Virus record (IMG/VR): IMGVR_UViG_3300037041_002244
Location: 1 to 47,935 of that record
Length of the DNA: 47,935 bases
Source of the DNA: a virus
Direction: 5' to 3' (one strand)
A model generated the notes under the pieces. It saw only the letters and a list, made by a program, of their open reading frames with translations, had not been told where the DNA came from and did not search any database. A program made the position numbers and the translations under genes. Positions within the stretch are counted from its first letter, which is position 1. Each line of letters starts with the position of its first letter. Shown here piece after piece: positions 8,348 to 45,645 of this stretch.

Positions 8348-9265
8348 TTAGACAATCTTAATGATGTAGCGAACAGGCAAACTGCGCGGTTTATTGCCGC
8401 TGACTTTGCTGTTGATGGTAAACGACCCACTGCCGCCGTCGAAAGCACCTTGTGTAAATGAAGGCAGCGATCCGGCGCTCCACGATCCACCTACCTGCGA
8501 TGTCGTCACGGTACTAGCACTCCACGACACGGTACTGGATCGTGTGTGCGGAAGAATGAGCGGAGATGCCAAAACAGGTGTGAGAACATTGGAAGGTGTT
8601 TCCTCCCAATCTACCGTATGTGAACTGAAACCCCAATCATACGTGCGCTGAATCTCGCCAGTCGTATTTTTGACGTTCATGGATTCAACGTGGTAGTGAG
8701 GTAGTTGATCAACATTCAGAACGGTCTTATCCCACTGAAAACTTGGCCACACCAAAGAAGGTGACGCGCCCGTACCGAAGGTATCCGATGCATGTGTCGC
8801 CGCTGTATGCGCATGAGACAGATCGAGATTGGAACCGTCCATGTCATTCTGACCAACCATCGCGGTATTTGACCACGCGGCGGCGGTTCCGGCATTTGTG
8901 GGCACAGTTCCAATGTCACCGCCACCGGCAGCGCCCGCACCGATCACATAGGATTCGGAAAGGTCAGGCGTATACAAATTATAAAGTGGAGAGTTTGAGT
9001 CATCGATGACCTGACCATTGCAGTAGCGCCAACCCGCTGGTAGCGCCACGGCTCCGTTGTAATCGTACCAAGGAACGATAGTGCCAACGGGCACTGTCTG
9101 AAATGACAACAACGGTGACAAATGCTGCGGCTCAACCGCGCCGTCAGCAATGCATCGCGCTGTAACACACTTGTCTGCCAAGTGCGAATTTTTAACGCCC
9201 TTGAGAGGAAGGATGTCATCATTCACTTGCGAATGCGGGATTCTTGTTTTACTATTTTTTCCCAT
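8348..9265 (-). CDS. Phage tail-collar domain protein (short fibre/receptor-binding)
   Basis: Residues about 58-110 match the phage tail-collar domain: VPVGTIVPWYDYNGAVALPA, then GWRYCNGQVI, then a PDLSESYVIGAG stretch in place of the classic 'PDLRGRF--G-g'. Residues 110-290 are Gly/Ser/Thr-rich with several His (LSHAHTAATHASD, LPHYHVESM), as in fibre tips that bind metals in the core. The C-terminus is NKPRSLPVRYIIKIV, the common ending of such proteins ('PP---v-yiIK'). The first 40 residues have polar heptad-like sequence that may join to the baseplate. The ATG has AGAGG nine bases upstream in a 58-base gap. A role in host recognition is likely from the family. Confidence 0.85.
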   Translation of the reverse strand: MGKNSKTRIPHSQVNDDILPLKGVKNSHLADKCVTARCIADGAVEPQHLSPLLSFQTVPVGTIVPWYDYNGAVALPAGWRYCNGQVIDDSNSPLYNLYTPDLSESYVIGAGAAGGGDIGTVPTNAGTAAAWSNTAMVGQNDMDGSNLDLSHAHTAATHASDTFGTGASPSLVWPSFQWDKTVLNVDQLPHYHVESMNVKNTTGEIQRTYDWGFSSHTVDWEETPSNVLTPVLASPLILPHTRSSTVSWSASTVTTSQVGGSWSAGSLPSFTQGAFDGGSGSFTINSKVSGNKPRSLPVRYIIKIV

Positions 9266-9323: not shown

Positions 9324-11111
9324 CTATTTTGTAATAATGGTATTTTCAAGAACGAGAACGTCAATCTGTGTTCCCAAAAAGCATTTGATTGCATCTGAAG
9401 GTGTCTCAACGATAGGTTCGCCTTGTACGTTGAAACTGGTATTCACAACACAGGGAACACCCGTTTTCTCATAAAATGCTTTGATAACTTCGTAATAACG
9501 ACCGTTGTTCTCTGCGTCCACAGTTTGGATGCGCGATGATCCGTCAACGTGGCAAACCGCAGGAACGAGATCCGGCTTTTTGCACTGCATCGAAATCAAC
9601 ATAAAAGGCGAATCCTTACCTTGTGTATCGAACCACTCTTCAGCGTGCTCTTTCAAAACGGAAGGCGCAAACGGACGAAACTCTTCACGGTGCTTGACCT
9701 TGAGATTGAGAATATCTTTCATGTCTGCGCGACGCGGATCAGCAAGAATTGATCGGTGCCCAAGCGCACGTGGCCCAAGTTCAGACCCGCGATAAAACCA
9801 ACCAACAATTTTACCGTCAGCAATTTGCTGTGCGACGATGTCCGCAAGTTCAGCGTCGGACTCAATAACCGCCTGCTTAACGTAGCGCGATTCAAGATTG
9901 GCGCGATGCTTTTCAATTGCAATATCTATGTCCATTGACGAGTACCACTTGCCGCTTTCAAAAACCTCGCGATTGGATAGCACGGTTTTTGCGCGAGGCT
10001 TGCGAATAATAGCGCCACCGCGCTTAACGCAAGCATTCCCAATCAACATAGCTGCACCAATAGACAGGCCGTCGTCACCGCAGGCAGGCGCGACAAAAAC
10101 ATTATCGAAGAGACCCGACCGAACAATAAAGCCGTTCGCCACACAATTCAAAAACAAGCCACCGGACAGGCAGATGTTTTTATGTGTTGTCAGCGAACGT
10201 GTTTTAGTCAGGTAAGCAATAAGAGAATCCTCCAAAATTTTCTGTACTGTCGCGGCCAATGACGTTGACGTAGTGGACTGCCACTCGTCCTTAATCAACC
10301 AATTTGCGTCTATCTCGCCGCCCTCACCATCCAGTTGGGGATAGCGTGTATAATTTTGTGGTAATTTGAGACCTAACATGGATAGCAAACTGGGAACGGT
10401 CGCAAAGAAAAAATCGTTTTCGGAAGGCCATACAAAATCGCAGGCATGACTATGAGGTTTGCCAAACGCAGCCAAGGCCATAACTTTTCCAGCACCGATC
10501 ACAGAAGGCCAAAAACCCAAATAGTCACAAATTTGGCTATAAAGCAACCCAACTTTAATACTGCTATCGCGCTTCATAACACGGAAATGCTTGCCTGCCT
10601 CAGTAAAATCAACAATGGCATTGGTGGCACCGGACTCGTCCGCAACGTCTAGTGCAACCGAAATAGCGTCATCGTATGGACTCATGAAATATGAATAAGC
10701 ACAATGCGCCAAATGATGCCCAATAAAAACAACAGGGCGATCCACACCGCGATAAGACAAAAGGGAACCCCAAAATTCGGAATCACAGTGCAACGAAAGA
10801 TACAAATCGTCTGTTAAAGGCTGGTCGTTAAAAGATGCTTGCCAACCGTCAGCCGCTCGGTTATACACACTTGATCGTTGCCCTTGTGCGTCACGTAAAG
10901 AGTCGCCGACCCAATTACACACAACAAATACGTCTATATCTTCGATACGGATATTTGCAACATTCAATGCGTAGTCAAAAACAACGGGTGGTACGCCACG
11001 GCACTTTTTTGTGCGTGTAATGCGCTCACTGCTTATCATAGTCAATAACTTGCCGTCGCGCACCACAGCAACGCTACCGTCGTGTCCAAAATTTAGGCCA
11101 ACTACAAGCAT
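9324..11111 (-). CDS. Carbamoyltransferase, NodU/TobZ/CmcH family
   Basis: A full-length 595-residue member. The N-terminal Kae1-like domain carries GHDGS (9-13), the metal-binding HHLAH (132-136), a SGGLFLN motif (316-322) and GDDG (345-348). The C-terminal YrdC-like half begins near 430 and contains GSELGPRALGHRSILADPR and EFRPFAPSV. Family enzymes make carbamoyl-adenylate from carbamoyl phosphate and ATP in one half and pass the carbamoyl group to a hydroxyl of a sugar, antibiotic or modified base. The substrate cannot be read from sequence. All key motifs are present, so activity is likely. ATG at 11111 follows AGGAG by six bases. It is the last gene of a cassette with a GT9 glycosyltransferase and a radical SAM enzyme, which favours a carbamoylated sugar. 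A modified nucleotide is an alternative, since related phage enzymes have been tied to DNA modification. Confidence 0.93.
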   Translation of the reverse strand: MLVVGLNFGHDGSVAVVRDGKLLTMISSERITRTKKCRGVPPVVFDYALNVANIRIEDIDVFVVCNWVGDSLRDAQGQRSSVYNRAADGWQASFNDQPLTDDLYLSLHCDSEFWGSLLSYRGVDRPVVFIGHHLAHCAYSYFMSPYDDAISVALDVADESGATNAIVDFTEAGKHFRVMKRDSSIKVGLLYSQICDYLGFWPSVIGAGKVMALAAFGKPHSHACDFVWPSENDFFFATVPSLLSMLGLKLPQNYTRYPQLDGEGGEIDANWLIKDEWQSTTSTSLAATVQKILEDSLIAYLTKTRSLTTHKNICLSGGLFLNCVANGFIVRSGLFDNVFVAPACGDDGLSIGAAMLIGNACVKRGGAIIRKPRAKTVLSNREVFESGKWYSSMDIDIAIEKHRANLESRYVKQAVIESDAELADIVAQQIADGKIVGWFYRGSELGPRALGHRSILADPRRADMKDILNLKVKHREEFRPFAPSVLKEHAEEWFDTQGKDSPFMLISMQCKKPDLVPAVCHVDGSSRIQTVDAENNGRYYEVIKAFYEKTGVPCVVNTSFNVQGEPIVETPSDAIKCFLGTQIDVLVLENTIITK

Positions 11112-11126
11112 AAAGCACTCCTGAGT

Positions 11127-11360
11127 TTAGTCGCAACGTCTGAACGACTTATTTTGAAAAATAGGAATTGAGCCATCTAAGGTTGGTTCAGGATTAAACT
11201 CGGCAAAGCAGTCAACAGTAAGCGTTGAAGCAACGTCGTTAGTTACCATAACATGTCGCCGCCACATGAGAAAAACTTCGTCAGGCATCACAGGCACAGA
11301 CTCCACGTATAGCATTGTGTATGCGTCGCGAGGGCTGATCTTAATTACTTTTACTTTCAT
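11127..11360 (-). CDS. Small protein between radical SAM and carbamoyltransferase genes (77 residues)
   Basis: Unrecognised. It runs from MKVKVIKISPRDAYTM to a basic KSFRRCD end. The ATG at 11360-11358 lies six bases after AAGGAG and inside the last 20 bases of the radical SAM gene, so translation of the two is linked. It has two cysteines, one of them the second-last residue, a DVASTLTVDCFAEF strand pair and a basic MWRRHVM patch. Size and position would suit a peptide substrate or a small partner of the radical SAM enzyme, but there is no leader/core layout or repeated Cys/Thr motif to prove it. It might equally be a binding subunit or unrelated. Confidence 0.72.
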   Translation of the reverse strand: MKVKVIKISPRDAYTMLYVESVPVMPDEVFLMWRRHVMVTNDVASTLTVDCFAEFNPEPTLDGSIPIFQNKSFRRCD

Positions 11361-12234
11361 GCTGCGCTCCTTTTTTGCAAGGATGTGTAAACGGAAATGC
11401 ACGATAAAATAGCACTGCGGACTGCCAATCCGTGTCCAAAAAATTGAGCGTGTTAGTGTCACACAAATGAGGCATACAAGGTATAAGTTTCCCCGTGGGG
11501 GTGACGTCTCCGCAAAAGCCAAAACATGCATAACTCGTGCAGGACACACCTAAGCCTTGTAACTTTTCACGAGTGTCTTCAGAAAACAACGATGGGGGTA
11601 AAAAACCACAGGTGTCAACGGAAAACGAAAATCTCTCTTTTTTTAGAAATGTAAAAACGGACAAAACGTGGTGCTCGTCAAAACTAGCATGCGTACCAAC
11701 GTCCAAAGCAACACGGAGTGCGTTTATACCAAACAAGTCACGACAAATAGGCAAGTAAGCTAAGTCGTCCAATGTTGTACACGTTGTCAAAGTAAGCGAC
11801 ATAAGAGGGCGTATCGAATTTCCAAACCTACCCCGCAACAAAGTAGACATGTTGGCGTGGACCATATCTATTATTTTTTTGTCTTTCTTATACAAGACGG
11901 AGTTATTCCAAACTAGATAATTTCGATAATCCTTGCCATGCGCAGACATGTCAATGTCTGCTAACTGCTGAACTGCGTCAGTACAAAACAAATTTGAAAA
12001 AAGACGAAATTGATCAAAGTAAAAACGGTTATCCGCCATAAATTGCATTATCGGTATAAAATGTGGTGCCATCATGGGTTCGCCGCCCAAAATACCAAAT
12101 TCGCGTTGTCCCTGTTTAAGCGCGTGCTGAAAATAACGAATAAAATCGTCCGCGCTCATGCTCACGTTCTCATTACAGGGCATGAAACAAAAAGAGCAAT
12201 TGTTAGGGCATTGCAGAGTTAATAAAAAATTCAT
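11341..12234 (-). CDS. Radical SAM enzyme with SPASM/twitch-like cysteine-rich C-terminus
   Basis: A 297-residue protein opening MNFLLTLQCPNNCSFC. It has the radical SAM cluster cysteines C9, C13 and C16 (CxxxCxxC) and the GGEP motif at 50-53 that binds the methionine part of SAM. The C-terminal part has C232, C237, C241, C253, C258 and C286 with the pattern CFGFCGDVTPTGKLIPC, as in SPASM or twitch domains that carry an extra iron-sulfur cluster. Known relatives modify peptides, proteins or small molecules by radical chemistry. I chose ATG 12234, which overlaps the stop of the preceding gene as ATGA; an upstream reading would give an N-terminal extension absent from the family pattern. Weak own ribosome site, so coupling to the upstream gene is likely. 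The substrate is unknown. Confidence 0.88.
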   Translation of the reverse strand: MNFLLTLQCPNNCSFCFMPCNENVSMSADDFIRYFQHALKQGQREFGILGGEPMMAPHFIPIMQFMADNRFYFDQFRLFSNLFCTDAVQQLADIDMSAHGKDYRNYLVWNNSVLYKKDKKIIDMVHANMSTLLRGRFGNSIRPLMSLTLTTCTTLDDLAYLPICRDLFGINALRVALDVGTHASFDEHHVLSVFTFLKKERFSFSVDTCGFLPPSLFSEDTREKLQGLGVSCTSYACFGFCGDVTPTGKLIPCMPHLCDTNTLNFLDTDWQSAVLFYRAFPFTHPCKKGAQHESKSN

Positions 12235-12518
12235 AGAGGCACACTCGCAATAAAATGACGCGTAATAGAATTTACATTCAATTCCACAGAACAGGGCAAC
12301 GCATAACACTTTCTAGCTTCTACCCACCATGTTTCCAATAAGGCCAAAGCGTAGCTATAAGTTTCCAGGGCTGTGCGGCGCACGTCAGGAGATGGATCAC
12401 GTATTAGAGCGTAGGCTTCGGCCTTGAGATGCAAGGCATACGTGTACTCCAATAATTGGTCCTGAGTGCAACGAACGTCCAAAACATAGGGCGCTGATAC
12501 CATAAAGTCACCCCTCAT
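12231..12518 (-). CDS. Small helical hypothetical protein in modification cassette
   Basis: A 95-residue, mostly helical protein rich in Leu, Ala, Tyr and Arg (LLEYTYALHLKAEAYALIRD, then TYSYALALLETWWVEA). No motif recognised. It starts at ATG 12518, overlapping the glycosyltransferase stop (ATGA), or at ATG 12503, which gives 90 residues (MVSAPYVLD...). Both starts sit after the same GGGGTGACTTT sequence because this site is duplicated. Its stop overlaps the start of the radical SAM gene. Tight overlap on both sides suggests a cassette-specific helper or substrate-recruiting protein. That is inference; nothing in the sequence names a function. Confidence 0.7.
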   Translation of the reverse strand: MRGDFMVSAPYVLDVRCTQDQLLEYTYALHLKAEAYALIRDPSPDVRRTALETYSYALALLETWWVEARKCYALPCSVELNVNSITRHFIASVPL

Positions 12519-12530
12519 AAAGTCACCCCG
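12501..12530 (-). repeat. Tandem 15-base duplication of a ribosome site plus start codon
   Basis: Two copies of the same 15-base unit (GGGGTGACTTTATG plus A or G) lie head to tail, at 12530-12516 and 12515-12501 on the minus strand; 14 of 15 bases agree. Each copy contains a GGGGTGA Shine-Dalgarno-like sequence and an ATG seven bases later. As 15 is a multiple of three, both ATGs are in the frame of the same gene. The first copy also codes the last residues of the glycosyltransferase. Confidence 0.9.
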
Positions 12531-13381
12531 TTTATTACACGTATGATCTCTCCTAGCATGGCTTCGTCAAGATTCATGGCTTCAGCATTTTCGTCAAGAA
12601 AACCATGAAATCTATTAGGAATGTAACTCCGAGGGAAGCCCGGACGTTGAAACGTATTGTAAAATTCGTAACCGATATTTTGCGCATACGTCGAGCCGAG
12701 AATGGAAACGCCTTTTTTTTGAAAAGCTGCGCCGATATGCGCCAAGGAACTGTCAACACCAACAACAAAATCACAAACACTAACGATGGCAAACAACTCA
12801 CGCAGCGTGAACTGTTGATTCCAAACATTCTTGCAGTCAATAAAGATATGAGAACAGTTTATAAAGCCGACCTTGCGTGACTCGTTTGCGATTGTTTCCA
12901 CCGTAGCTTTTAGAAGCGAACGGTTGGAATTATCACAGGTAGCTACGACAGCGCCAGCACCATAAGGCTGATAAGCGGCTATGATGTCGCGCTGTGTTTC
13001 TTTTTTAACATGTGCTAGTAATTGTTTTGCCCATGCGATCTCATCGTTATGCAAAAACAATTGAGGCTGGCGAGAAGGCAGTGGCACGTCACCGTTAATC
13101 AAGAAGTTGAAAGAATCAATCAAATGATGCTTTTGGTTGTAGTACAAATGACTGTGATAAGGTTCTGGATGTAAAAAATTACCATAGCGGATAACGTCGT
13201 CCCACAAATAAGGATGATCTAGTTTATAGCATTTTCTGACGTAAGGGTTGTGCCAAAATACGTCAGGCCAAGAAGAAATGACGATTAACTTTGAGTTTGG
13301 ATGATTAGTAGCAAAAGATCGTAGTGCGGGCGTTGCACAAATCACACGACCAATGCCACCGTCTATCTGAATAATATTCAT
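12515..13381 (-). CDS. Glycosyltransferase family 9 (heptosyltransferase-like)
   Basis: A 288-residue protein with both GT9 signatures. The N-terminal loop is GGIGRVICATPALRSF (8-23), followed by KLIVISSWPDVFWHNP. The C-terminal sugar-nucleotide site is ELFAIVSVCDFVVGVDSSL (195-213), then AHIGAAF and a GVSILGST strand. The Asp and His in that motif (D210, H215) are kept. Family members transfer heptose or related sugars from ADP- or other nucleotide donors, usually to lipopolysaccharide. At 288 residues it is a little shorter than typical bacterial WaaC/WaaF proteins of around 320-350. There is no membrane segment. ATG 13381 follows GAGG. In this phage context the acceptor may be a fibre or a host glycan; sequence does not decide. 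Confidence 0.86.
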   Translation of the reverse strand: MNIIQIDGGIGRVICATPALRSFATNHPNSKLIVISSWPDVFWHNPYVRKCYKLDHPYLWDDVIRYGNFLHPEPYHSHLYYNQKHHLIDSFNFLINGDVPLPSRQPQLFLHNDEIAWAKQLLAHVKKETQRDIIAAYQPYGAGAVVATCDNSNRSLLKATVETIANESRKVGFINCSHIFIDCKNVWNQQFTLRELFAIVSVCDFVVGVDSSLAHIGAAFQKKGVSILGSTYAQNIGYEFYNTFQRPGFPRSYIPNRFHGFLDENAEAMNLDEAMLGEIIRVINGVTL

Positions 13382-13398: not shown

Positions 13399-13950
13399 TT
13401 AAGCGTCGATCACCGTAGCAAAAGCCGCCTTCGTATTTTTGAGATACAGATATATTTGTTTGACCAAATTTGTATTTGTGTCGGCGTAAAGAGCGTCAGT
13501 AGAAAAATACTGTTCCCAAGACCAGTGATCCGTCCACGATTCAATAGTTTCATAATCGAAACTAGCAGCGCACCGACTAACATAACGCTCTTGTGAAACG
13601 TCGTAAAATGTTTGCCCACATGCCACGGTCCAAAACTCCCATTTTGTACCAATCCATTTTGCAACGTGATCTTCATAGTCCAGCCACTCGCCTTCAGGAG
13701 AGTCGCCAACAAACCACATATCATCAATGTTACGCTGTTCAATAGACGGCGGGATATCCCGTTTACCTAATACTCTTTGAACAGGTGCGCCGCTTCCGAT
13801 CATAAATTCTTTATGCGCCAAAAACTCAGCGGACTTCGACGCGTCAGCATAGATGCGTAGAGAAAATGCGACGCATCTACTCATTTTATCATAACGCACC
13901 ATGTCAATTATGCTGTAGGTTCCGGGAGCTAAGTAGTTCAAGAAAGCCAT
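13399..13950 (-). CDS. Hypothetical protein, 183 residues, aromatic-rich
   Basis: Unrecognised. It begins MAFLNYLAPGTYSIIDM and is notably rich in Trp and Tyr (WLDYEDHVAKWIGTKWEFW, SWTDHWSWEQYF), as sugar-binding proteins and fibre tips often are. There is no signal peptide or membrane span. ATG 13950 follows AAGGA by six bases. It lies between the glycine-rich putative adhesin and the GT9 gene, 17 bases upstream of the latter. It may belong to the fibre tip group or to the modification cassette. Both readings are inference. Confidence 0.74.
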   Translation of the reverse strand: MAFLNYLAPGTYSIIDMVRYDKMSRCVAFSLRIYADASKSAEFLAHKEFMIGSGAPVQRVLGKRDIPPSIEQRNIDDMWFVGDSPEGEWLDYEDHVAKWIGTKWEFWTVACGQTFYDVSQERYVSRCAASFDYETIESWTDHWSWEQYFSTDALYADTNTNLVKQIYLYLKNTKAAFATVIDA

Positions 13951-13961
13951 GACATTTCCTT

Positions 13962-15713
13962 TCAGCCAGAAGTATTACACCATACGTTAAATTTGAGGCG
14001 CACAAAACCGCGTGTGCCTATATTTCCTGTTGCACCTGATGCACCTGTTCCGCCAAGACAACCTGCGGCACCTCCGGCTGCCGCGCATCCGGCAGCGCCG
14101 CCGCCAGGAACTCCGCCGGAGTTTCCGGCGAAACAGGTGCAGCAGAAAAGGTTCCAACAAGCGTTGCCATAGGTATAGCATTCGGAAACCCCGGATGCTT
14201 TGCCGCCGCCACCGCCGCAGCCGCCCGCGCTTCCGTACCCACCATTACCTCCGGTACCACCGTAGCCACCACAGCCACCGCCACCGCTGTTGCCACCCGC
14301 ACCGCCAGTGCCACCCGCACCGTAACCACACCATCCGGCTGCGCCTGTACCGCCTGCTGTGCCGGTACAACCACCGGGACACGTGCTAGGACATCCGGCT
14401 GCGCCGCCTGCGCCGGGACAACCTGCAAGGCCCGGAGGTGGCGGTGTTGCTGCTGTATCGTGGGATAATTGGGCATGCCAATAATTCAAACTCGGCCCAA
14501 ACCCGTTGCAATTACACGTACACGTACCCGCACCCGCTCCGGGTCCACTATAAGCATTTAGTCTACACCCCGACTGATAGTAGACGCCGCCTGCGCCACC
14601 TGAGCCAGCGTTTTGTCTATAAATAGCACCACCAAGCACATCAAAGGAGCCACCACAGCCACCCCAACTCGAACCGCTGTACGAGTAGCACCACCCGTAA
14701 CCGGCGGTGCCATTACCACAAGGACCGTAACCGGCGGCACCGCCAACAGCACAGGCTCCGATGAACATGGAGCTACCACCACCGCCACCCCATTTACCAC
14801 CTGCGCCACCTGCGCCACCTACAGGATAACACGCCCAGGACGAACCAGCGCCGCCGCCGCCGCCGCCGCTACCCGCGTACAGTGCCGACCACGAAGACGC
14901 GCCGGAGCCGCCTGCGCCGCCGTATACATATCCCGTTGAATAGTAGGCGGGACACCCACCACTGCCAGCGGCTCCCGCAGAGTTCGTTCCCGGACTTATA
15001 GTATAATTTGCGGCCGCAGCGGGCGTACTACCTGCGGATGCTACACCGCTACCTGTGCCACCCGTGCCACCTGCGCCGCCAGGAAAAATGCAGCACATAA
15101 CACCTGCGCGACAAATATATGAAGGGCATCCTGACGCGCCACTACTAGCCGTAGACGATCCACTATTGTAAGCCACGCCCGCCGAAGGTGCGCCGCCTGT
15201 ACCGCCACAACCAACACAGACTGAAAAAGTTTGCGCACGTAATGCGGAAAAACAACACGGTGTCCCCCCTAAATTCGTTGTGCCACTGCAACCACCTGCG
15301 CCGCCTTCGCCGCGACAGCCGCCACAACCGCCGTAACCGCCGTTACCACCGGGACCACCGCACCCTCCGCATCCTGCGCAACCCGAAGCGCCAGAGCCGC
15401 CGCCGCCACCTGCGGAGTTAGCATAGTAGGCGGCGGGAGCCAAGGCGTGATAGCTACCCAAACCGCCTGCGCCACCCGTGCCACCCGTACCGCCACAAGC
15501 GCCACAACCGCTAGTTCCACCTGTACCGCCGCGCCCGCCACCGCCGCCACCGGAGCCACCGCCACCGCCACCGCCACCGCCAATACCCCATACACAAAGA
15601 GGGTCTTGCTCCACAAGTGTCTGCGGTGACACCCAAGTGTTATCCGTTGTGTAATCGCAGCACAAGGATACTTTGCGCAACCTTTTCATAAAAACCATTG
15701 GAGTAAAATGCAT
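13962..15713 (-). CDS. Glycine- and cysteine-rich tail-fibre adhesin-like protein
   Basis: A 583-residue protein. After a roughly 40-residue N-terminal segment with ordinary composition (LRKVSLCCDYTTDN), it is dominated by Gly runs (up to nine in a row) broken by Ala, Ser, Thr, Tyr and about 44 Cys in all. The last part ends GTRGFVRLKFNVWC, like the 'G--G-V-V-Y' end of glycine-rich phage fibre domains. Gly-rich runs of this kind form polyglycine-II bundles in the receptor-binding adhesin gp38 of some T-even phages, and that gene also lies right after the long fibre gene, as here. So an adhesin at the fibre tip is the best reading. The high Cys content is not usual for those adhesins. ATG 15713 has TAGGAG six bases upstream. 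The long G-rich DNA would give spurious reading frames on the other strand, which I ignore. Confidence 0.85.
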   Translation of the reverse strand: MHFTPMVFMKRLRKVSLCCDYTTDNTWVSPQTLVEQDPLCVWGIGGGGGGGGGSGGGGGGRGGTGGTSGCGACGGTGGTGGAGGLGSYHALAPAAYYANSAGGGGGSGASGCAGCGGCGGPGGNGGYGGCGGCRGEGGAGGCSGTTNLGGTPCCFSALRAQTFSVCVGCGGTGGAPSAGVAYNSGSSTASSGASGCPSYICRAGVMCCIFPGGAGGTGGTGSGVASAGSTPAAAANYTISPGTNSAGAAGSGGCPAYYSTGYVYGGAGGSGASSWSALYAGSGGGGGGAGSSWACYPVGGAGGAGGKWGGGGGSSMFIGACAVGGAAGYGPCGNGTAGYGWCYSYSGSSWGGCGGSFDVLGGAIYRQNAGSGGAGGVYYQSGCRLNAYSGPGAGAGTCTCNCNGFGPSLNYWHAQLSHDTAATPPPPGLAGCPGAGGAAGCPSTCPGGCTGTAGGTGAAGWCGYGAGGTGGAGGNSGGGGCGGYGGTGGNGGYGSAGGCGGGGGKASGVSECYTYGNACWNLFCCTCFAGNSGGVPGGGAAGCAAAGGAAGCLGGTGASGATGNIGTRGFVRLKFNVWCNTSG

Positions 15714-15754: not shown

Positions 15755-18700
15755 TCACGACATATCCGCAATGACGACACCGTAAATGATGCCACCAATT
15801 TTGATAAAAGTGTACACGTCGTGGCGACCCGCTGTTTGCGACGGTGTTGGTGCCGCGCCGGAGTTCCACCTAATGGTTGCTGCCGGAGTTGTTGCCGACC
15901 AGCTTGCCGTATAAGCACCCGGACTGATCAACGTGATATTTACCGTTTGCCCCTCGGTCAAACCATCGATAACAAACGCCTGCGCTCCACCTGCCGGTGT
16001 ACGCACAAAGATGTGCTTCGCGGCAGCGTTGAAAGTATTGTTGCCATTGTCCGTCGCTCCGGGAGACACGAAACGCCCGTAGCCATTCACAACGTGCATG
16101 TTTGCACCGGACGCCGCGCCCAATCGCGCTGTTCCATCAACGTACAAGTTGGTGCCAGCGTACACGGACTTCTCAACACCGATGCCGCCTTCAATGACGA
16201 AGCACCCAAGGTCTTTTGACGTTGCGTCGGTCGTGTTAGGAATTGTAACGATGCCCGTACCGTCTATCGACAATCGCGTGTTGTTGTTGGTCTGAAAAGC
16301 TAAGATGCGGGTTCCCGAATTGTGACCAATGTACAAACCAACGCCGTCTTGCAAGAAGGTCGTGGTGTACCCTGTACCAGCAGCGTTATCGAATTTCCAA
16401 CGGGCACCGATATAAAAAGTTTCCACCGCCGTTTTGACAATGCTGTCTGTCGCTACTGTTCCTGTGCCCGTGAAGGAAAGAACGCCACTCGGCAGTTCAA
16501 TTATACCGGAGGTTTTGACTCTGAATCTTACTGTAGGCTCCGTGTCCGTTAGAACAGATCTCGTCGCAACAATAAAGTCGCCATTTGTGACACCCGTGGC
16601 ACCTGTTTCTTGATAACCGCAATAAACAGGGTAGTGTGCGCCTGCGGTCGGCTTGTAGCCAAAACCAATCAAGCGATAACTGTTAGCACCGTATTCATCC
16701 AAGCCCAAACCGACGTAGTAAGCATTGGTTGTTGCCGTTGGCGCATTACTGCTAATGACGCTTGAAAATACGGTACTTTTGCCGAAAACTTTGTGGACTA
16801 AAGTCGATTGCGTTACGGTCAAATCAGGACCGATTTGGTGATTACCGCTGCTGTCAACAACGTGAACAGAAACGGTCGCAAGGTTGCCAGCCGCATTACG
16901 ACACAATCTATAACTTTGCGCAGTGTCTACGCCATGTGCCCACACCGTAGCAGCATTCTGTGTAACGTACTGTACTATAGTCGCGCCACCACTCGCATGT
17001 GTGGTACGCAGCGACATAACGCTGTTACCAGCACTGTTGGAGTTTTGCAGAATCATCGTGTTGCCATAGAACGTGTAGTTCGTATTAGCATGATCAGCGG
17101 CGGTCGCACTACCAAACTGTGTACTTCCGTTACCAACAATCTTGAGAACAGTCTCCGTGTAATTTCTGATATGAAATACAGTATCGGTGTCCGCAAGAAA
17201 TCCATTCGTGTTCGGCGCAGTAAATTTATACGCGTCAAATATGAAGCCTGTGCGTTGCCCGTCAGTAGCACCGCCGTGATACGATCTAAAATAGAACGCT
17301 GTGAGTCCATCTGTGTCAGTACGCGCTACAATAGCAGGGGATGCCGCTGTCGCTTGGAAAGCCAACTGTCCCGCAGCAAGTTCGGAACCGTTGCTCACTG
17401 TCGAGAACGTGGATGTTATCGCGACCCAACCACCGTCTTTGATATTGATGACAGAACTACGAATGTACCGCTTGTTGGTATTATCCCATCGCGTAACGTC
17501 GCCCTGCGCGGTGCCTGTCTGAACCTGCGCAGTATCGAGACCCGAACTTCCCGAAGAATCGTATTGATCCCACGTGCCGACAATCGCAGTGGTGTTACTT
17601 GCAAAGTGCATATCGATGCGATTTCCTGTCGTCGCACCAAGATTGATTCCCGTAACAAAACCGCTGATGATTCCCTTGCCAAGAAATTGATTATTGCTGG
17701 CAGTCATTGTGATTGCAGGATTTGCACCGGACGCTGCCCATCCCGTACCAGAACCCTTGAACATGAAGTTCAAGCGTTTGCCGGTTGTCAGTGAAACAGA
17801 CAACGCCTCCAACTTCTCAACAAGAATCCAACCGCCGTCAGGACACGCGGTAATAGCCGCCTGCGTCGTAGCATACCGATTGCCGTACACGTCAACGTCG
17901 GTCACGACGCAATCGTATCGAAATTCTTTGTCGTCGGTTGTGAACAGATCGAGACTACCAATTTGACCTGACCGCAGCACAACATTTTCAAGCCACAATT
18001 TAGAACCAAGCCGTCTGCCAAGCACAAGGATATCGTCGCCGAATGGAACTGTCGCCGCTGCGACCACGGTCAAGTTCGCCGCTGCCACACCTGTACGATT
18101 CACAGTGACGTAGATGAAGTCGCCGTCTGCAATTGCGAAGTTTGTCAGCGCCAAGATCGTATTGCGCGTGTCGCCCAAACCTTCCATTTCGACATACATG
18201 GATGCCGCCGTGGTAAGTTGAGTACCGCTCCACGTGATATTACCACCGCCGCGCAATTTCTTGTTGGCATTCTGTCGAATCATCTGCGTTGTGGTGTCAC
18301 CGCGATCACTCAACTTGACGAGAGACTTTTGCACGTCGGTTTGCGATGCGCCAAGTGTAACAGGCTCATAAGCAGTCGTACCAAACTCACTGACCTCGTC
18401 CGAAATCGCTGACGCTGGATGTGCGTTAGGATCGCTGCGACCGCTCAAGCTATTGTGATTTGCACCGCCGCCACCGCCACCGGCACCGCGACCAGGATTC
18501 TTCGTTCCCCGAATATCAAGAGGCTCAATGGGCATCTGACAGTTAGTGGTGCCGCCACTCGCTGCGACGTACTGATAAGTGATGCGGTACAGCGCCGCCA
18601 TTTCAGCGGCAGGAAATCCACCAAACTGAAGACTGTCAAAATCCTCGGCTTCCGCATCCGCCTGTGTCGCGTGTTGCGACTGTGGCTGAATGATCATCGT

Positions 18701-21700
18701 GGTGCCGAACTGGAAGTTTGTCGTCAACACCCACACGTTGAAAAAGTAGGTGCTTGTAACGGGTGTCTGCGCGAAGTTCGACGCGGGATCACTCCACTGA
18801 GGGACACCGACAAGATGCTTGATAGGAAGTCCTGTCACAGCGTCCCACGTCCAGTCACCAGCCACAGTGTTCTCACGATACCAAATTTCGATCTGCGCGG
18901 GATCTGCCAAGTCTTGATGAAACGGACTTGAAAAAGGTGCCGTATCATACAGCGTGTGGAAAATATCCTCGTCAGCAATTTGACCGCCTGACAGACTGAA
19001 AGTGATTGCAGCGTCCGAAGGTGTGAGCAACGTGTAGTCAGCAATGTTGTGACCGCTGATATATTGCGTACCGAAAGCCAGATGCTTGTACAAGTGGTCT
19101 TTCCAGATACGCGAAACACCGTGGCGCTCGTCGCCAAGTTTTCCTGCGGCTAGATTAGCATTCCACAGCACAACGGCAACGGGAGCATCCGTTGCAAGAT
19201 CCCACGGCGAGTTTGTCACCTGCAATTCAAACTGATCATCAAACCAAATCCAATACAAGCCTGAAATATTCGGCACAGGAGCCGTCTTAACGGTGTCAAT
19301 TTCCTTGCGCACACCTTGCACGTACACGGTATAAAACGGCGCAGGAGTCACCGACAACGTCAGTGTCAAATCGTCGAAGTCCAACACGCTTTGGAAAATC
19401 TCGGATTCGACAAAGCCGATGGGGAACACTGTTTGTTTTGCAGCGGTTGACGGTTCAACCAAACCGATACAACTTGCGACGTTGTATTCGTAGTCACGCA
19501 GCGTACCGTAATCAATATTCTGGCGATTAGGTCCGTTGGTGCCAAAAACCATTTGCACAACAGGACGTGTCTGTGCATTGAAGTCAATCGCATATGCCGT
19601 GAAGTTCTCAAGCAAGCCGTAGCCCGTCATGGAGCATCCAGGCGCGTCGAACGTGATTCCTGTTCCAACCACACTGTTACCGTCAAAGCCGGTCTCAGGC
19701 CCACGGAAAACGAAGTGGATCGTTTTTCCATTAGTGTTGAGTCCTACTGTCAGCACGGTCATCTTGTTGACAAGAATGAAGCCGCCATCAGGACACGCGT
19801 TAATAGCATCCTGTGGATTCACAAATGTCGTATAGGGATGTCCTTGATAAATCGCATTGCTGATCACGGTGTCAAACTTGAACACACCATCATCCATGCT
19901 GAACGGACTTCCCTGCGAACCATCGAGATTGAAGTCAGTCAAAAGCAAACCGCTGTAGTCAACGGCAAGCGTATTGTTCTTGAAAAAGGCTTCGATGCGC
20001 GTTCCAATATTTCCATTGAGATCCAGCGCCGTCGCGAAATTCTCGAACTTGCCAAGACCCGTGATCGTGCAATACGGTTTATTCAACTGCAAGCCTGTGG
20101 ATGCAAACGGTATCGTACCGGCTTGAAGTTCATTCACCGCCAAGGAAATGGGCAAACCGCCAATCGTCACGGCGTCGCCCGCCCACTCACCAGGAGTAGG
20201 AATGGTGAAATTCTGCCAAATATGATTTTGCAGATCCCACAAATAAACTCTGAAGTTTGTCGCAGTTCCCATATACAAGAATGTGTTATCGTGCCACACA
20301 CTCAACGCCTGATCCGTAGACGTGCCTGCCACAGTATACGTTGTCTTGTATTGAAAGATCGTGAAATTGGTTCCAACGCTATCGCCACCCACGTAAAGGT
20401 ATCCGAGGTTGTCACCCCAAATATGACGATACTTGTCGCCCACGGGAGCCGCGAAATTGCTAACGTAGCTCAACGTACCAGCGATGTAGTTGTAGCTATA
20501 AACGCGCATGTAGTTGTCGCAAGCAACATGCAAGTAAGCATTGTCACCCCACACGGCATAGTAGGTATCCACACCTTGCAGGTCTGTCGCAATTTGTGCA
20601 AGCGCACCGGACACGGGATTGACACTGTAAGAACGAATACCAAGTGTCGAGTATGTGACATAGGCAAAGTTTCCGTTACCCCAACAACCTGTCGCCACTC
20701 CGGGATTCAAAAAGTCCTTGCGGGTCAGGACGCCTATTTCAACACGGAATGTTGCAATACCGTCAGCGCCAACTGCGACAAGATGCGATCCCGCAATTGT
20801 CAATTTTGTGGTGTAGTCATTCGTGTTCCAAGAACTGACAAGCGACCAAGAAGTTCCATTGAATTGAAGCGCAACGATGTATCCTGTACTTGTCGATGCG
20901 TAAATGTAGGTGCCGTCGCCAATGACGTCCAAGAAGTTTCCGAGCGCACCTGCGTAGGTGGCAACCGCCGTGAGTACACCCAATTGGCTCACAGTGTATG
21001 CGGTAAGATCAGTTCCTTGACAGGAATAAACGTAGGTGCCGTCTCCCCAAGATCCATTCGCCGCTGATCCGTCACTGTCTTTGAGCGTAAACGTACTCGT
21101 ACCGGCAAGACCGCTGTAAAGATTGTCGCCCGGATAGTTACCAGCCTGCGTCACGGAAATTGTGATATTAACTGGCACAACGCCCGTCAACAACGTGTTG
21201 GCGTTCACAGTAATTGCGAGCGCGGGTTTCTTGCCGTCAACTGTTCCGATGAACTCGACGAAAAAGCCACCGCTGTAGCTTCCCGTAACAATCACGTTGT
21301 CAATCGTTGTAAGCGCAACAAGCTCGCCGCGAACGTCATTTGCTGTGGCGTCCCAATTCATGTTGTTGGTATTTTGCCCATTGTAAGCAAGACGCCAATT
21401 TCCTGAAGTGGGCACAGTGCTGAACACGATGTGCTGAATTTCATTTATGCCGTCAGGGATCAAAAGCGGCAATACAGGGCGCTCTGCCATTGTACCGATA
21501 AACTCAAAGTCAAATCCTGCATAATAATCGCCAGTGACAAGGATATTGCCTGCGCCAATGCTCGGCACACTTTCCATAACAGCCTGAACACTTGCGGCGT
21601 TCGACGTGTATGGAATATTGGCAGATTCATTGCCACTGTACTTGAGACGGAACGATCCCGAAATCGGATAGATTTGCGGTGTTCCCTGTTGCGTTACCGT

Positions 21701-24700
21701 CGCGGCGATAGAACCTGCGCCGCTGTCGTTGGCATTATGTGTCAAGGCATCCGTTGTAGATCCCGACGTGGTTGTGTTCGCCTCTACGACGTTGGTATTA
21801 AGCGTCCATGCAAAAGGCAGCAGAACACCGTTGACCGCCGTGAACACCTTAAAGGCGACCTGCGATGCATTATCAGCACTCAGGATGTTTGCAGCGACGC
21901 GGTTTGCAAGTGGGGTACTCACGTAGTCAGCGCCCGTAGGTTGCGTGCCCGCGCCGTTGATATTGAGCCACACGGCGTACTTGTTGCCTGACGTTGACCA
22001 AATCGTGAAGTAGTCGGCTTGCGTCGAAAGCAAGCCGGTAGTAAATGCGAATTGCGTTGTTTCCGACGTTCCAACTTGCGTTGCAAAAGCAAGATGCTGA
22101 ATTTCATTTATACCAGCGGGTACGGTCAACATGACTTGTGGTTGCAAACCGTCAACACCGACCCACTCAATAATGAATCCTGTGCTATAGTCGCCGGACA
22201 CAGACACGTTGGTGATATTGGACAGTGCCTCAAGCGCCGCCTCAACACCGGCAGCATTTGTGCTAAAGGACATATCGACTGTTTTTTGCCCACCAAATTC
22301 CAGTTTCCAAGTGCCGCCATCGGGAATTGCGCTGAATGTCACTTCCTGAATAGCGTCGGTTCCGCCGTAGGACAAAAAGCCCGTTTCCGGTCCTTTACAA
22401 ACAATGTCCACGCGCTTACCGCGTGTTGTCAACATGCTGTTTAGAACGCACAATTTCTCAACAATAAATCGCCCGCCGTCACGTACATCCTCCATCGCAG
22501 TATAAGGATCGACGTAGCAGTTTTCACCAACACGATCATCAGTGACAACAACATCGTTGGCGAGGTCTTCAATATAGACACCAAGGGAGCCGTCAATATT
22601 ATACTGACCCACAAGCAAATCACGCTTGTCAATATTCACGCGCCCGATTTGAATGCGCACGTTGTCAATGTCGATAGGATTGCCAATGGCACCGACAAGC
22701 ATTGTGAACAGAGGCAAGGATGCGTAAGAAGACGTTGCAGTAAGCGTGAACTCATAATCCTGGAAACTGGCAGTCAGCGCAGGATTGACAATATCCGCAT
22801 AAGTACCAAAGCCTGTAAAGGACATGCTTTGACCTGTGAGTGCCACAGACTTCGCACGGAATTTGACCCAGTAGGTACGCCCATCTGTCAGAGGAACGGT
22901 GTTCCACAAGAGCCTATGATTGGCACCCGCTTGATAAGTCCACGTCATAAAATCATTGATAGTATCGTATGTAACAACGGCACCTTCAACGCTATATTTA
23001 CTCGTTGTATCAGTCGCAAAATCATCGCGATAAATCCAACCGTTGTCTTCAGGAAAACGCATTTCGATGCGCGTGCCTGCCATGTCGTTAAGGTCAACGG
23101 CAACGTCAAAGTCATCAAACTCACCCATGCCGAGGAACTGACAATCAGCATGTGTCAATTGAAATCCGACTCGCCCTGCGGTAGCAGCTTTTCTAAAGCC
23201 GGTTCCCAATCCCTTGCACATCACATTGACGCGCTTACCCGGAATGATTGTCGAAAGAATATCGGCTTTTTTCTCAACAAGAATCCACCCACCGGCAGGA
23301 CATGCAGCGAATGCAGCGGCGGCAGTCGTGTAACATTGAAATCCAATACGATCCGTCAAGCGCACGTCGTAGTTGAACGGAATGTCTTCTTGGTCAACGT
23401 CCAAACCAAGAGAACCGTCAACACTAAATTCATTTCTTTGCAGCGTGCCGTAGTCAATTGACGTTGTATTGTTTTCAAACGCCATTTCGATCCGCAAGCC
23501 GGGATTGCTGTTACTTTGAATGCCCGTTGCAAAATCTTTGATAAGTCCAAGGCCGACAAATTGACAATTGGGAGCGGACACAAGTTGAATGCAGTCACCT
23601 GTGAATGTGGACTCACCCGCAGTCGTTTCCGAAACGGTGGCCACAACCGGCGTAACACCAAACAACAAACTGCTATTTACGATCACATTCGTTTGAGGCG
23701 ATTTTCCAACATTGCCTGTGAATGACAACGTGAAGCCATTGGTAAAGTTTCCAGTCACAACAATCGCAGGCGTACCGGGGAGCGCCTGCAACGCGGCTTG
23801 CACTGTTACCGCCGTCGCAGCGGATGTCATGACTCCTGTGGTATTTGCACCGTATGTGATCGTCCACGTTCCGGCATTTGGCGTGGCAGAGAACAGAATG
23901 AGTTGAACTTCATCCGTTCCGGGGAAGGCCACAAAACCTGTATCCTGACCACGGAAAAGGAAGTTTACCGATTTTCCTGAAACAAGAAGAGGTGTGCGAA
24001 TGTCGCACATCTTATCGACAAGAACCCAACCATTGTCAGGACATTCGTCAATCGCCTGTTGAGGGATTTGGAAAAAGTTCACATCCTCAACGTCACTAAC
24101 AACAACCTGAATCAGAGCGCCGATTACGTTGCGATTGAACTCGCTGTCGTCGGAGCTTCCCTTGTTGCGCCACACCAAGATATTTTCAACAGGCAGAACA
24201 GGAAGGTCATAAGTCAACAGCACGCTGTTACTATTCCAAATAACGTAGTCATTGGACGCGCCCGCTCGAAGAAACTTTCCGCCAATCGCCAAAAAGAAAT
24301 CACGGAAAGGTTTGCCGGGATTCGTCCCTTCGTTGAAGGTGGGAATGCCTGTAATGAGTGTGCGACCCGTGCCATTGAAATTTCTTTGCACGTCGAGAAC
24401 GCCGTCGCCCTGCGCATTTGTGTTATCGCTATTGATTGCGGCTTGCCAATGAAAGTCGGCAACAAGCTGCGCGTTGAGCCGGAAGTACACTTTGTAATCA
24501 AAAATATCAACGGTACCGGAAGTTGCCTCAAGCGATGTGTCACCCTTGAGCAATGTCGTCGCGACACTCGTACCTGCAATCCAGGTCGCAAGATATTGAC
24601 CCTGCCGTGCATCGTAAAACAAACCAACGTCGGTTTTGCTGACACCCGTATCGACCGTTGCCAAAGCTATAATGACGTCCAATGTTCGAGGATCGAATGT

Positions 24701-42864: not shown

Positions 42865-43755
42865 TTACAAGTAGAACAAACTGCTCTTGCCAAGAACTTT
42901 GACACATTCATATTTTCGCAAGAAGAATCGCAAGAACTCAGAATTACCGGCGAACTGATTTTCCGTAAAATCCAATTTTTTGTTGAGTTTTGTCAACTTG
43001 TGCATGGCTTTAATCTGTTCCACGTGCGCCAATAGGACATCCTTATTTTTGCCCGCTGGCATCTTTACAAGCAAGTCTTTCAGCGTGCCGTCACAGTCGT
43101 AAAAGGCTGTCTTCACTTTTTGAAACAAATAAGGGATGCAAGGAATGTTATCACTCTTGTCACCACGGATAGCCTTGTACAATGATATTTTCTTGGCGTC
43201 AGAAAAAGCTAGACCAAACTCTTCACGCATGGCGTCTTCGGTAACAACGTCGCGCTCCCCTATCGAAACGTGACGCATGCGCAAAAGCTGCCACATGTCC
43301 TTGTCGGTACTCACAAGACGGATTGGCACGTCGCGATACTTTGCGCAGAAACTTGCCATCACGTCGTCGCTTTCCTCACCCTCGGCAAAAATCATGGTGC
43401 AAGGTATGTAAGATAACAATTTGATGACGTCATGCACAGGATGAAACTCTTCAGTAAAAGTGTCCGGCAAATATTGCTGAAAACTTTTTCTATTCGGACG
43501 ACGCTTGTAATCTGCGTACAGTGCGTACTTCCACGCTGGATGCCTGTCTAATGCAAAAACCAGCGCGGTCGGCTCCCGAATCTGGTCACGCACAAAGGCT
43601 TGGAGCTTCATGATAACACCATGAATATGCCCAACGGGGTAGCCGTCCGAACGTGTAAGACCCATCAAGCCTTTTTGGAAAAAACAGCGCAAGGCCAGAT
43701 TGGAAGTGTCCCACAGCACGATTTGCGAAGCCTTGTGAATCGGTACGAGTTTCAT
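42865..43755 (-). CDS. 5'-3' exonuclease / flap endonuclease (PIN-like domain)
   Basis: 296 residues with the full set of acidic metal-binding motifs of the family: WDTSNLALR (D16), YKRRPNR (83-89), EGEESDDVM (125-133), STDKD (149-153) and GDKSDNIP (198-205), the last being the helix-hairpin-helix start that binds DNA. These enzymes remove RNA primers and flaps and are also called RNase H in T4. The start is ATG 43755, five bases after GAGG, which overlaps the DnaB-type helicase stop; an upstream reading has no site. Adjacent to helicase and clamp, so a role in lagging-strand processing is expected. Confidence 0.88.
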   Translation of the reverse strand: MKLVPIHKASQIVLWDTSNLALRCFFQKGLMGLTRSDGYPVGHIHGVIMKLQAFVRDQIREPTALVFALDRHPAWKYALYADYKRRPNRKSFQQYLPDTFTEEFHPVHDVIKLLSYIPCTMIFAEGEESDDVMASFCAKYRDVPIRLVSTDKDMWQLLRMRHVSIGERDVVTEDAMREEFGLAFSDAKKISLYKAIRGDKSDNIPCIPYLFQKVKTAFYDCDGTLKDLLVKMPAGKNKDVLLAHVEQIKAMHKLTKLNKKLDFTENQFAGNSEFLRFFLRKYECVKVLGKSSLFYL

Positions 43756-43762
43756 AAAATCC

Positions 43763-45064
43763 TCATGCGTCGTTAGCGGATGCCATATCAGAATCGTCTG
43801 TGTCATCGGCGTCGCGTCCCGACACACTCATATGGGCAAAGTCTTCTACCATAAAAACATCGAAAGTTTTTTGATTTCTTGCCTTCGTTTGCTTGATCGT
43901 AAAAAAGTGTGTTTCCTTTTCCTTGTCGCCCATATGCCAAGACCACACGTTGTTGCTGTTCTCAACAATGGCGCGAGCATACTTCACTTTGTCGTCTTCG
44001 TTCAACTGCGCAAGCAACACTATGACAGAACCAATGGCATTCGCAGCGATCTTAGCGTAGCGGGCACTCTCGCCAAGATTCTGCGCTTGATTCTGATTCG
44101 TTTTGTCTTCAGGATCGAGAAGGTTGATCATGTCGATGAAAATAACATCGGGCTTCAGCGGTGCAATGGTGTTGACAATATTGCTCAACGAAACACTCTC
44201 ATTGGGCACCCACACGTTGAAAAACGTGCCCTTATCCTGCCCGTATTCCTCGAACTCTTTCCACTTGCGACGAATGAGCTTTTCTTGTTTTATTGACAAC
44301 TTTTTCAATAGTACCTGCGAAAAGTCCACGCCGGATATATTGGAAACGATGCGCTCGTACACTTCTTCGGTACTCATTTCCATTGACACGTACACTACCT
44401 TGAAGCCTGCACGGTATTGATTGATCGCTACTTGCAAGCCCATAACGCTCTTACCGCCGCCGCTATTTGCAGCCAACGTCACAAGGCTGCCACGACTCCA
44501 ACCACCATTCTGTGAATCAAAAGACGGTATGCCGGTTGGTATAAATTTCTTTTTTGTGGGATCAAGAATGCGGTCAATGATAGGGCGACTGGTGCTACCC
44601 TCACCGATTGTTTGAATATTATCATGGTCAGTCGTCAACGCGCTCTTAACATGCTTGTCTAATTTTTTGATTACTGCATCCAACGTCGCGGAATCCACGT
44701 CCTGCGATTTCAGGATTTCAAGTGCTTCCTTGGCACCGTCGTGAACGCTGCGAATACGACGATAGTCATTAAGAACTTGCATCAATGACATTGCGTCGTT
44801 GCCGTTCTCAATGGAATTGAGCTTAGACGCCAAAACATTGCGGGCGCTATCACTCAATGCTGGATCATCTTTCAAAAGATTTCGCGAAGGTAAAGCTTTT
44901 CCAGACTTGATCAAGTTACGCAAGCGTTGGAAAATTTCTTTTGTTGGCTCGTGACCAAAATGAGCCTTCTTCAGCTTGCCAATCAAAAACGAGGAAACAT
45001 CCTCTTCCGCATCGAGAACAGTGATCAAAGCACGGATCTCATGTTTTGTCGAACATAACTTCAT
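43763..45064 (-). CDS. dnaB: DnaB-type replicative helicase
   Basis: 433 residues. A helical N-terminal part (1-150) is followed by the RecA-like core. Walker A is ANSGGGKS (199-206), just after GGWSRGSLVTLA; VSMEM (226-230) matches the H1a glutamate motif; Walker B is PDVIFID (305-311); the LLAQLNE stretch (350-356) matches the sensor-like H3 motif; and a THFFTIKQTKARNQ stretch the arginine-finger region. The C-terminal tail is acidic (DADDTDDSDM), unusual for bacterial DnaB but common for phage proteins. The start overlaps the previous stop (ATGA) with AAGGTG eight bases upstream. It lies in order helicase, loader-like, DnaB, nuclease, clamp. Confidence 0.9.
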   Translation of the reverse strand: MKLCSTKHEIRALITVLDAEEDVSSFLIGKLKKAHFGHEPTKEIFQRLRNLIKSGKALPSRNLLKDDPALSDSARNVLASKLNSIENGNDAMSLMQVLNDYRRIRSVHDGAKEALEILKSQDVDSATLDAVIKKLDKHVKSALTTDHDNIQTIGEGSTSRPIIDRILDPTKKKFIPTGIPSFDSQNGGWSRGSLVTLAANSGGGKSVMGLQVAINQYRAGFKVVYVSMEMSTEEVYERIVSNISGVDFSQVLLKKLSIKQEKLIRRKWKEFEEYGQDKGTFFNVWVPNESVSLSNIVNTIAPLKPDVIFIDMINLLDPEDKTNQNQAQNLGESARYAKIAANAIGSVIVLLAQLNEDDKVKYARAIVENSNNVWSWHMGDKEKETHFFTIKQTKARNQKTFDVFMVEDFAHMSVSGRDADDTDDSDMASANDA

Positions 45065-45645
45065 ATTGTTTGCACCTTGGTTACAACTTTAGCGTCATTT
45101 GCCGCTGCACAATGCGAAGTATCCCGGAAATATAAAGCGTAGTCGATGTCAATTCGCAAGGTCTTCTCAGCAAAGTCTATTGGATTGGTGCCACCACATA
45201 CTACAATTGTTGGAATTTCTATCAGAGTCAAAAAGTCACGCACTGCGGAAATACGACTAGGCATGGAATCCGTTGTCACGTTGTAAATGACCGCAAAAGT
45301 CAGGTCTTTCAAACGAGGCGAATGCACGTCAATACACGCCGAATTTAGAAACGACACCCCGTTCACAAGCTGCGGTTGTCTCCGTAACGCGGCTTTGACA
45401 ATATTGACAGCCACAGTCATTGCGGCATCGTCCTTCGGCGCAGAGGCTAATAAGATGCGCACATGTCGCTTTTCTCTAAGGTCGATCTTCATCAAATCAA
45501 CAAGCAGGGCATCTTGGTCTTTTGCAGACACGGCCACTTTTGTATCCACCGAAGGCGTGAAGCGCAGCGTACTAGGGATCACTGTTTGCACAGGCCAATA
45601 GCGCCGAGGCATTTCGATTGCACGCCAATAGTGGTCTAGCTTCAT
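45061..45645 (-). CDS. Putative helicase loader-like protein (possible degenerate AAA+)
   Basis: 194 residues directly before the DnaB-type helicase, overlapping its start. RILLASAPKDDAAMTVAVNI at about 64-83 has the place and feel of a Walker A strand-loop-helix with no GKT/GKS left; RLKDLTFAVIYNVTTDS at about 111-127 looks like a Walker B strand lacking the paired acids; and IEIPTIVVCGGTNPIDFA at 142-159 fits a sensor 1 strand. This is the pattern of phage helicase loaders that lost ATP binding. By order and layout, a helper that loads the helicase is the best guess; a family call would need a structure prediction. ATG 45645 follows AGGGAG by six bases. Confidence 0.6.
   Translation of the reverse strand: MKLDHYWRAIEMPRRYWPVQTVIPSTLRFTPSVDTKVAVSAKDQDALLVDLMKIDLREKRHVRILLASAPKDDAAMTVAVNIVKAALRRQPQLVNGVSFLNSACIDVHSPRLKDLTFAVIYNVTTDSMPSRISAVRDFLTLIEIPTIVVCGGTNPIDFAEKTLRIDIDYALYFRDTSHCAAANDAKVVTKVQTI

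Follow-up and report, generated by a model that had tools for sequence, protein, structure and literature searches.

Gene content of the window

The window analysed here is the whole 47,935-nucleotide stretch of the IMG/VR virus record IMGVR_UViG_3300037041_002244, in which 37 genes were called. Nine of them follow one another on the minus strand from 26749 down to 8348, separated by at most 58 nt or overlapping, among them a glycosyltransferase of family 9 (GT9), a carbamoyltransferase (CT) and a Gly/Cys-rich tail-tip adhesin. The row begins with a giant tail fibre of 3664 amino acids (15755..26749, 0.8% Cys), followed by the adhesin (13962..15713, 583 amino acids), which we propose as acceptor of the modification, and by a 183-amino-acid protein (13399..13950) with a DUF2793 match (Pfam PF10983, 3e-7), whose slot is taken by a tail assembly chaperone in many relatives (PF16778 in 7 of 117 GT9 neighbours). 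Then come GT9 (12515..13381, 288 amino acids), the small open reading frame (ORF) p95 (12231..12518, 95 amino acids), a radical S-adenosylmethionine (SAM) enzyme (11341..12234, 297 amino acids), the 77-amino-acid ORF p77 (11127..11360), CT (9324..11111, 595 amino acids) and a tail-collar fibre gene (8348..9265), the last with a weak Pfam Collar match (7e-4) under the curated cut-off. From giant fibre to collar, the intergenic distances are 41, 11, 17, -4, -4, -20, 15 and 58 nt. Because of these tight gaps and overlaps and the AGGAG-like sites preceding the p77 gene (AAGGAG) and the CT gene, the nine-gene row looks like one transcription unit.

The original prediction described the five genes from GT9 to CT as a compact cassette between two fibre blocks. 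All five ORFs are open on the minus strand, the families of GT9, radical SAM enzyme and CT were confirmed by profile searches, and the cassette does sit between the giant fibre plus adhesin and the collar gene. The ATGA overlaps on either side of p95 and the p77 start nested in the radical SAM gene were also found as claimed. Around the GT9 stop and the p95 start (12505-12545, minus strand), the sequence GGGGTGACTTTATG is repeated; because of this duplication, there are two possible ATG start codons for p95.

GT9 and the carbamoyltransferase

GT9, the core of the system, matches the Pfam family Glyco_transf_9 (PF01075, E = 7e-8, above cut-off) and phrog_8954 (1e-43). In its predicted model (pLDDT 88), the nearest folds are the GT9 enzymes 3tov, WaaC, WaaF and TibC (Foldseek 1.6e-11 for 3tov, 1e-9 for WaaC and 5e-8 for TibC). 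The GT-B fold and the C-terminal donor-site motif place the protein in GT9, and D210 and H215 are shared with WaaC and WaaF, with the DSxxxH sugar-nucleotide motif region in common. The position of the catalytic Asp13 of WaaC is occupied by Arg or Lys in all aligned phage members (Lys in Pelagibacter phages), while a PEPY motif containing Glu73 is invariant among them. The phage protein is thus a GT9 by fold and profile, not a proven heptosyltransferase. Since a thiol acceptor needs less base help than a hydroxyl, the replacement of Asp13 would suit a cysteine acceptor; this argument remains suggestive, because Glu73 may serve as base. The four-cysteine iron finger of the bacterial autotransporter heptosyltransferases (BAHT), such as TibC, has no counterpart as an insertion in the sequence or the model of the 288-residue protein, and we do not file the phage enzyme under BAHT on these grounds, though it may work similarly.

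The window protein is a divergent phrog_8954 member. It shares about 25-34% identity with proteins annotated as 'hypothetical' in cyanophages P-SSM2, S-SSM7 and S-CAM1, and relatives at a similar identity were found in more than 500 viral contig stretches. A direct pattern search of viral contigs with the window protein alone gave no match, and a scan with the Vibrio and Aeromonas GT9 proteins returned SBP1 again and nothing further. A survey of 84,980 bacterial and archaeal species genomes gave only nine relatives, all on metagenome-assembled contigs with a phage layout, so phrog_8954 is apparently confined to phages.

CT is covered over its full length by Carbam_trans_N (PF02543, 5e-41, residues 5-355) and Carbam_trans_C (PF16861, 5e-70, residues 427-595), both above cut-off, and matches phrog_1601 (2e-118). 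It has the Kae1-like N-terminal and YrdC-like C-terminal domains of the NodU/TobZ type, and its nearest solved structures are 7xb6 (2.5e-67), GdmN and TobZ. CT thus resembles the NodU, TobZ and GdmN O-carbamoyltransferases in both domains, although those enzymes act on Nod factors or antibiotics whereas the putative acceptor here is a sugar on the adhesin. CT is about 30% identical to the 'Nol-like' enzymes of cyanophages.

GT9 and CT occur together in 187 of 194 GT9 loci, and in most of the first 86 they lie side by side or close to it. Because the pair co-occurs beside tail-fibre and adhesin genes, the cassette is best read as making a carbamoylated glycan that is carried by a fibre or adhesin, one of the options in the original prediction. 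Of its other candidate targets, a DNA base is pointed to by nothing we found, and a host molecule accounts poorly for the cysteine link described below. The genes do not lie singly at random places: GT9 and CT accompany tail-fibre and adhesin genes. The proposed five-gene unit did not hold up, its order being found nowhere else and GT9 plus CT alone being conserved. The original interpretation was also incomplete, because the clue to the acceptor lies in the neighbouring adhesin.

Association of GT9 with cysteine-rich tail tips

We defined a Cys-rich ORF as one with more than 6% cysteine, the level elsewhere being about 1% and that of the tail tips which accompany this GT9 family 6-12%. In the first 86 GT9 loci, such ORFs cluster upstream of GT9 at positions -1 to -5 and are present in 73; several of the remaining 13 end at a contig edge just before GT9. 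A test set was then picked solely by the T4-like tail-fibre N-terminal region. Among loci with at least 9 kb downstream of it, a Cys-rich ORF was found in 33 of 33 GT9-positive and 0 of 24 GT9-negative cases. Over all 80 loci of this kind the counts were 34/34 and 3/46, and in the three GT9-negative loci with a Cys-rich ORF at most 5 kb follows the fibre gene, so GT9 may lie past the contig end. Conversely, when loci were selected through the Cys-rich adhesin and at least 3 kb lay downstream of it, GT9 was present in 68 of 68, a count silent on Cys-poor relatives because the search patterns themselves contain Cys. Nine hold-out loci from the genome collection all agreed (9/9; two of the nine are alike), and GT9 loci with room on both sides had a Cys-rich protein or stretch in 83 of 86 cases. 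Co-occurrence with the Gly/Cys-rich gene, which the original prediction named as a check, is therefore strongly positive.

The window follows the same pattern. Its adhesin has 44 Cys in 583 residues (7.5%), the highest count of the 37 called genes (P ~4e-17 at the window mean), and lies two genes upstream of GT9, in line with the proposed rule of a phrog_8954-type GT9 at most a few genes away from a tail tip with at least 6% Cys. In Vibrio, Aeromonas and, with weak enrichment, Pelagibacter phages that have GT9 without CT, the fibre beside GT9 holds the most cysteines of all genes (41 in Vibrio SBP1, where the runner-up, another tail fibre, has 15, and 23 in Aeromonas HJ05), while the CT-without-GT9 loci examined contain no Cys-rich adhesin. 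Cysteine therefore follows GT9 and not CT. This distribution speaks against CT carbamoylating cysteine directly, in the manner of HypF on HypE, with GT9 in a secondary role. The NodU fold is related to the carbamoyltransferase domain of HypF, and CT gives a weak Pfam HypF_C_2 match, but a direct S-carbamoylation leaves the Cys-rich fibres of the GT9-only phages and their absence from CT-only loci unaccounted for, and we consider it very improbable.

In some loci, Cys-rich adhesins lie downstream of GT9 on the opposite strand (L042:14795-17780 and L031:14719-17694, minus strand), so the link does not depend on a single operon order. The idea that the cysteines stem from a diversity-generating retroelement was set aside, since the enrichment spans whole proteins.

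Features of the cysteine-rich proteins

The Cys-rich proteins are tail-tip proteins of dissimilar architecture. One family has Gly_rich_2 domains in 28 of 31 members, and a model of this type (pLDDT 69, moderate) best matched the Pam3 cyanophage fibre and the Bxb1 tail tip; other builds comprise an S74-chaperone fibre, a Phage_Tail_Tip protein, a coiled-coil tail protein and large proteins without a Pfam match. In Vibrio phages D505 and K479 (L090:9726-14996 and L094:9726-14657), the tail protein adjoining GT9 has Cys in Ala-like positions of its coiled-coil repeats, with up to 10 Cys per 100 residues.

In the Cys-rich proteins, cysteine is about tenfold enriched, Ser and Thr show no excess, and Asp, Glu and Lys are about halved. 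This composition bears on the idea that glycosylation of the tail tip by GT9 and CT falls on Ser, Thr, Asn or Tyr while the cysteines are co-selected for another use. TibC, the nearest solved protein-modifying GT9, does use serine (PMC4358343), and the invariant Glu73 is a possible base for a hydroxyl acceptor. Such a target would nevertheless leave the strict tracking of Cys with GT9 in unlike proteins without a reason, and we judge it unlikely.

The placement of the cysteines was further analyzed in 196 YadA-head-like repeats from five fibres, in which 171 Cys fall at five variable positions versus 0 at two other variable positions; we take the five to face outward and the two to be buried. 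In homologue pairs, Cys is highly conserved and, when changed, is replaced by T, S, N, Y, G or R, while in control proteins the replacements are A, V, S, L or I. These substitutions were counted within families, and a blast comparison between Cys-rich and Cys-poor proteins, confounded by glycine-rich sequence, was left unused. Odd and even Cys counts are equally common (odd in 185 of 362 proteins). As far as sequences can tell, the exposure, the swaps with polar residues and the lack of a parity bias are more readily explained by surface side chains that bear a modification than by buried thiols or disulfide pairs.

Another explanation is that the cysteines are tip-stiffening disulfides or metal ligands and that GT9 and CT form a module for the host surface or for superinfection that travels in the same exchangeable cassette. 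The tail of Agrobacterium phage Milano has a disulfide network (PMC10811340), conserved cysteines would be expected of such bonds or sites, and host O-chains are the target usually given for phage glycosyltransferases (PMC7029224). On the other side stand the odd Cys counts in about half of the proteins, the scattered outward cysteines of the repeat fibres, the 2.1% average Cys of Milano structural proteins versus 6-12% here, and a linkage that is two-way and near total across groups with unlike cassettes. We therefore give this explanation a low probability.

Radical SAM enzyme and other putative tailoring genes

The radical SAM protein matches Pfam Radical_SAM (PF04055, 1.6e-8, 35.3 bits against a cut-off of 29.5) and contains the superfamily motifs CPNNCSFC (CX3CX2C) and GGEP. 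It had been called a radical SAM/SPASM protein; the first half of that name is supported by profile and motifs, while for the second there is a Twitch/SPASM-like Cys pattern at the C-terminus and no Pfam SPASM match (N_Twi_rSAM reached 0.003, below cut-off). No relatives of the enzyme were found in phages, viral contigs or species genomes. For p95 and p77 no family and no relatives were found, and neither they nor the 183-amino-acid protein had relatives among the first GT9 loci. Because the radical SAM gene, p95 and p77 are absent from every other GT9 locus examined, they look like local additions, the enzyme being, we infer, one more exchangeable tailoring enzyme. A correspondence of p77 to the longer C-terminal tail of cyanophage GT9 proteins was dropped, as those tails are low-complexity linkers.

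Weak N-terminal NCBIfam matches to peptide maturases such as HxsC, together with the small ORFs on either side of the gene, might cast the radical SAM enzyme as the main actor, modifying or crosslinking the Gly/Cys-rich protein or a small ORF product, with GT9 and CT as accessories. No precursor peptide was identified for such a maturase, no SPASM match supports it, and other GT9 loci have Cys-rich proteins without a radical SAM gene, which makes this role quite improbable. CT and radical SAM genes also meet elsewhere: a group of CT-only phages (L192:9995-13207; also L193, L202, L188 and L191), without GT9 and without Cys-rich adhesins, has two CT genes and, directly after them, a radical SAM gene of unrelated sequence type.

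The neighbours of GT9 differ from locus to locus and include 2-oxoglutarate-Fe(II) oxygenases, sulfotransferases, cupins, a halogenase and an FkbM methyltransferase. In several GT9 loci a sulfotransferase-like gene directly follows CT (L245:11694-12506, L180:8397-9269, L207:6186-7130 and L179:11685-12566), with an FkbM-like methyltransferase and further transferase-like genes nearby, forming another tailoring set. In cyanophages, GT9 is followed by the 'Nol-like' carbamoyltransferase (T4-GC 302 and 303) and then by nucleotidyltransferase, sugar kinase, phosphoheptose isomerase and epimerase genes. S-SSM7 has a tryptophan-halogenase gene within its sugar/carbamoyl cluster (L003:14146-15633), which could act on a tail protein or on a precursor of the sugar.

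Elsewhere in the window, 42865-47037 contains helicase, DnaB-like helicase and exonuclease genes. The replication genes have distant jumbo-phage relatives only, the DnaB-like helicase being about 30-34% like those of Vibrio, Burkholderia, Pseudomonas and Erwinia jumbo phages, and by these comparisons the window would belong to a large phage of an undescribed group.

Discussion

We propose that GT9 puts a sugar, most likely a heptose taken from a donor of the ADP-heptose type, on surface cysteines of the adhesin, and that CT then carbamoylates this sugar. The radical SAM enzyme, p95 and p77 would be local extras, one of several exchangeable tailoring sets on a common core. The decorated tip may keep a charge-poor protein soluble and may shape or shield receptor binding. 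We give this reading, glycosylation of tail-tip cysteines by GT9 with CT as tailoring enzyme, a probability of about 0.6. The gene order, the folds, the two-way linkage of GT9 with Cys-rich proteins and the exposure pattern of the cysteines are its direct basis; from these we infer the action of GT9 on the adhesin, the bond to sulfur, the kind of sugar, the substrate of carbamoylation and the part of the radical SAM enzyme. The modelled likeness of the GT9 fold to TibC, a protein heptosyltransferase, lends support by analogy.

Several points weigh against it. The Fisher P-value of 1e-16 for 33/33 versus 0/24 ignores common descent. GT9 and CT are present in two loci (L032 and L242) whose examined stretch shows no Cys-rich ORF, and a third exception (L093) is a doubtful family member. 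In Pelagibacter HTVC111P, the fibre beside GT9 has 12 Cys and the enrichment is weak (P = 0.055). Cysteine is the most conserved residue of the tips, and disulfides or metal sites would give the same. The window contains no heptose genes, and the reading does not account for its radical SAM gene.

Heptose is our best guess for the donor. At least two heptose-type genes are present in 63 of 194 GT9 loci versus 0 of 46 GT9-negative fibre loci, many of which are short. The lipopolysaccharide (LPS) of marine Synechococcus has no heptose (PMC4515613), so a cyanophage in need of ADP-heptose has to carry the genes itself, while for Vibrio and Aeromonas phages the host could be the source. Sullivan et al. 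(2010) recorded the cyanophage LPS genes and left their function open as 'stuffer DNA' or functional (PMC3037559). Their LPS/heptose clusters (T4-GC 302-308, in P-SSM2 and S-SSM7) are the same loci as those described here, though they drew no link to Cys-rich tips. Pelagimyophage glycosyltransferases have been assigned to host O-chains (PMC7029224).

TibC is a GT9 heptosyltransferase that modifies an adhesin at many sites, on serine (PMC4358343), and the likeness of TibC and AAH to the phage enzyme is one of fold. TibC has Asp110 as base, a four-cysteine iron finger and a dodecameric assembly, whereas the phage protein is shorter, has Arg at the position of WaaC Asp13 and is encoded beside Cys-rich tips. 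WaaC and WaaF differ from it in the replaced Asp13 and the phage-invariant PEPY, and the phage gene lies beside tail genes, not host LPS genes. The Milano tail proteins are Cys-enriched too, but at about 2%, with paired sheath and baseplate disulfides and no glycosyltransferase link (PMC10811340). No report of a link between GT9 and Cys-rich tails was found in the open-access literature, most subscription papers being outside its coverage.

Glycosylated virions are a known kind, as are protein heptosylation by GT9 enzymes, O-carbamoylation and S-glycans on glycocins. The glycocin S-glycosyltransferases SunS and ThgS, which we take to be GT2 enzymes and hence unlike GT9, put a sugar on cysteine, as we propose here for the phage GT9. 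Glycocins carry a few sites on a small bacteriocin (PMC6405829, PMC12457901), whereas about 30 cysteines on a virion protein are at issue here. The combination of GT9, CT and Cys-rich tips, and dense cysteine glycosylation itself, would be new.

Our results suggest that many marine phages sugar-coat their host-binding tips, probably with attachment at cysteines. In its widest form, a widespread and dense protein S-glycosylation in which a phage-only GT9 coats tens of tip cysteines on many folds, with exchangeable carbamoylation, sulfation, methylation and oxidation, and cyanophage 'LPS' genes supplying the sugar, the idea has in our view even odds. The S-linked glycans known so far come mainly from small bacteriocins with a few sites each; tens of them per virion protein would, if true, give cysteine a new use and amount to an unfamiliar surface chemistry at the point of contact between phage and host. 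It would also give a testable job to the cyanophage 'LPS'/heptose genes, which are puzzling given the heptose-free LPS of marine Synechococcus, and cultured phages are at hand (S-CAM1, S-SSM7, P-SSM2 and Vibrio SBP1). For annotation, a common 'hypothetical protein' would receive a function, together with a rule to locate its target.

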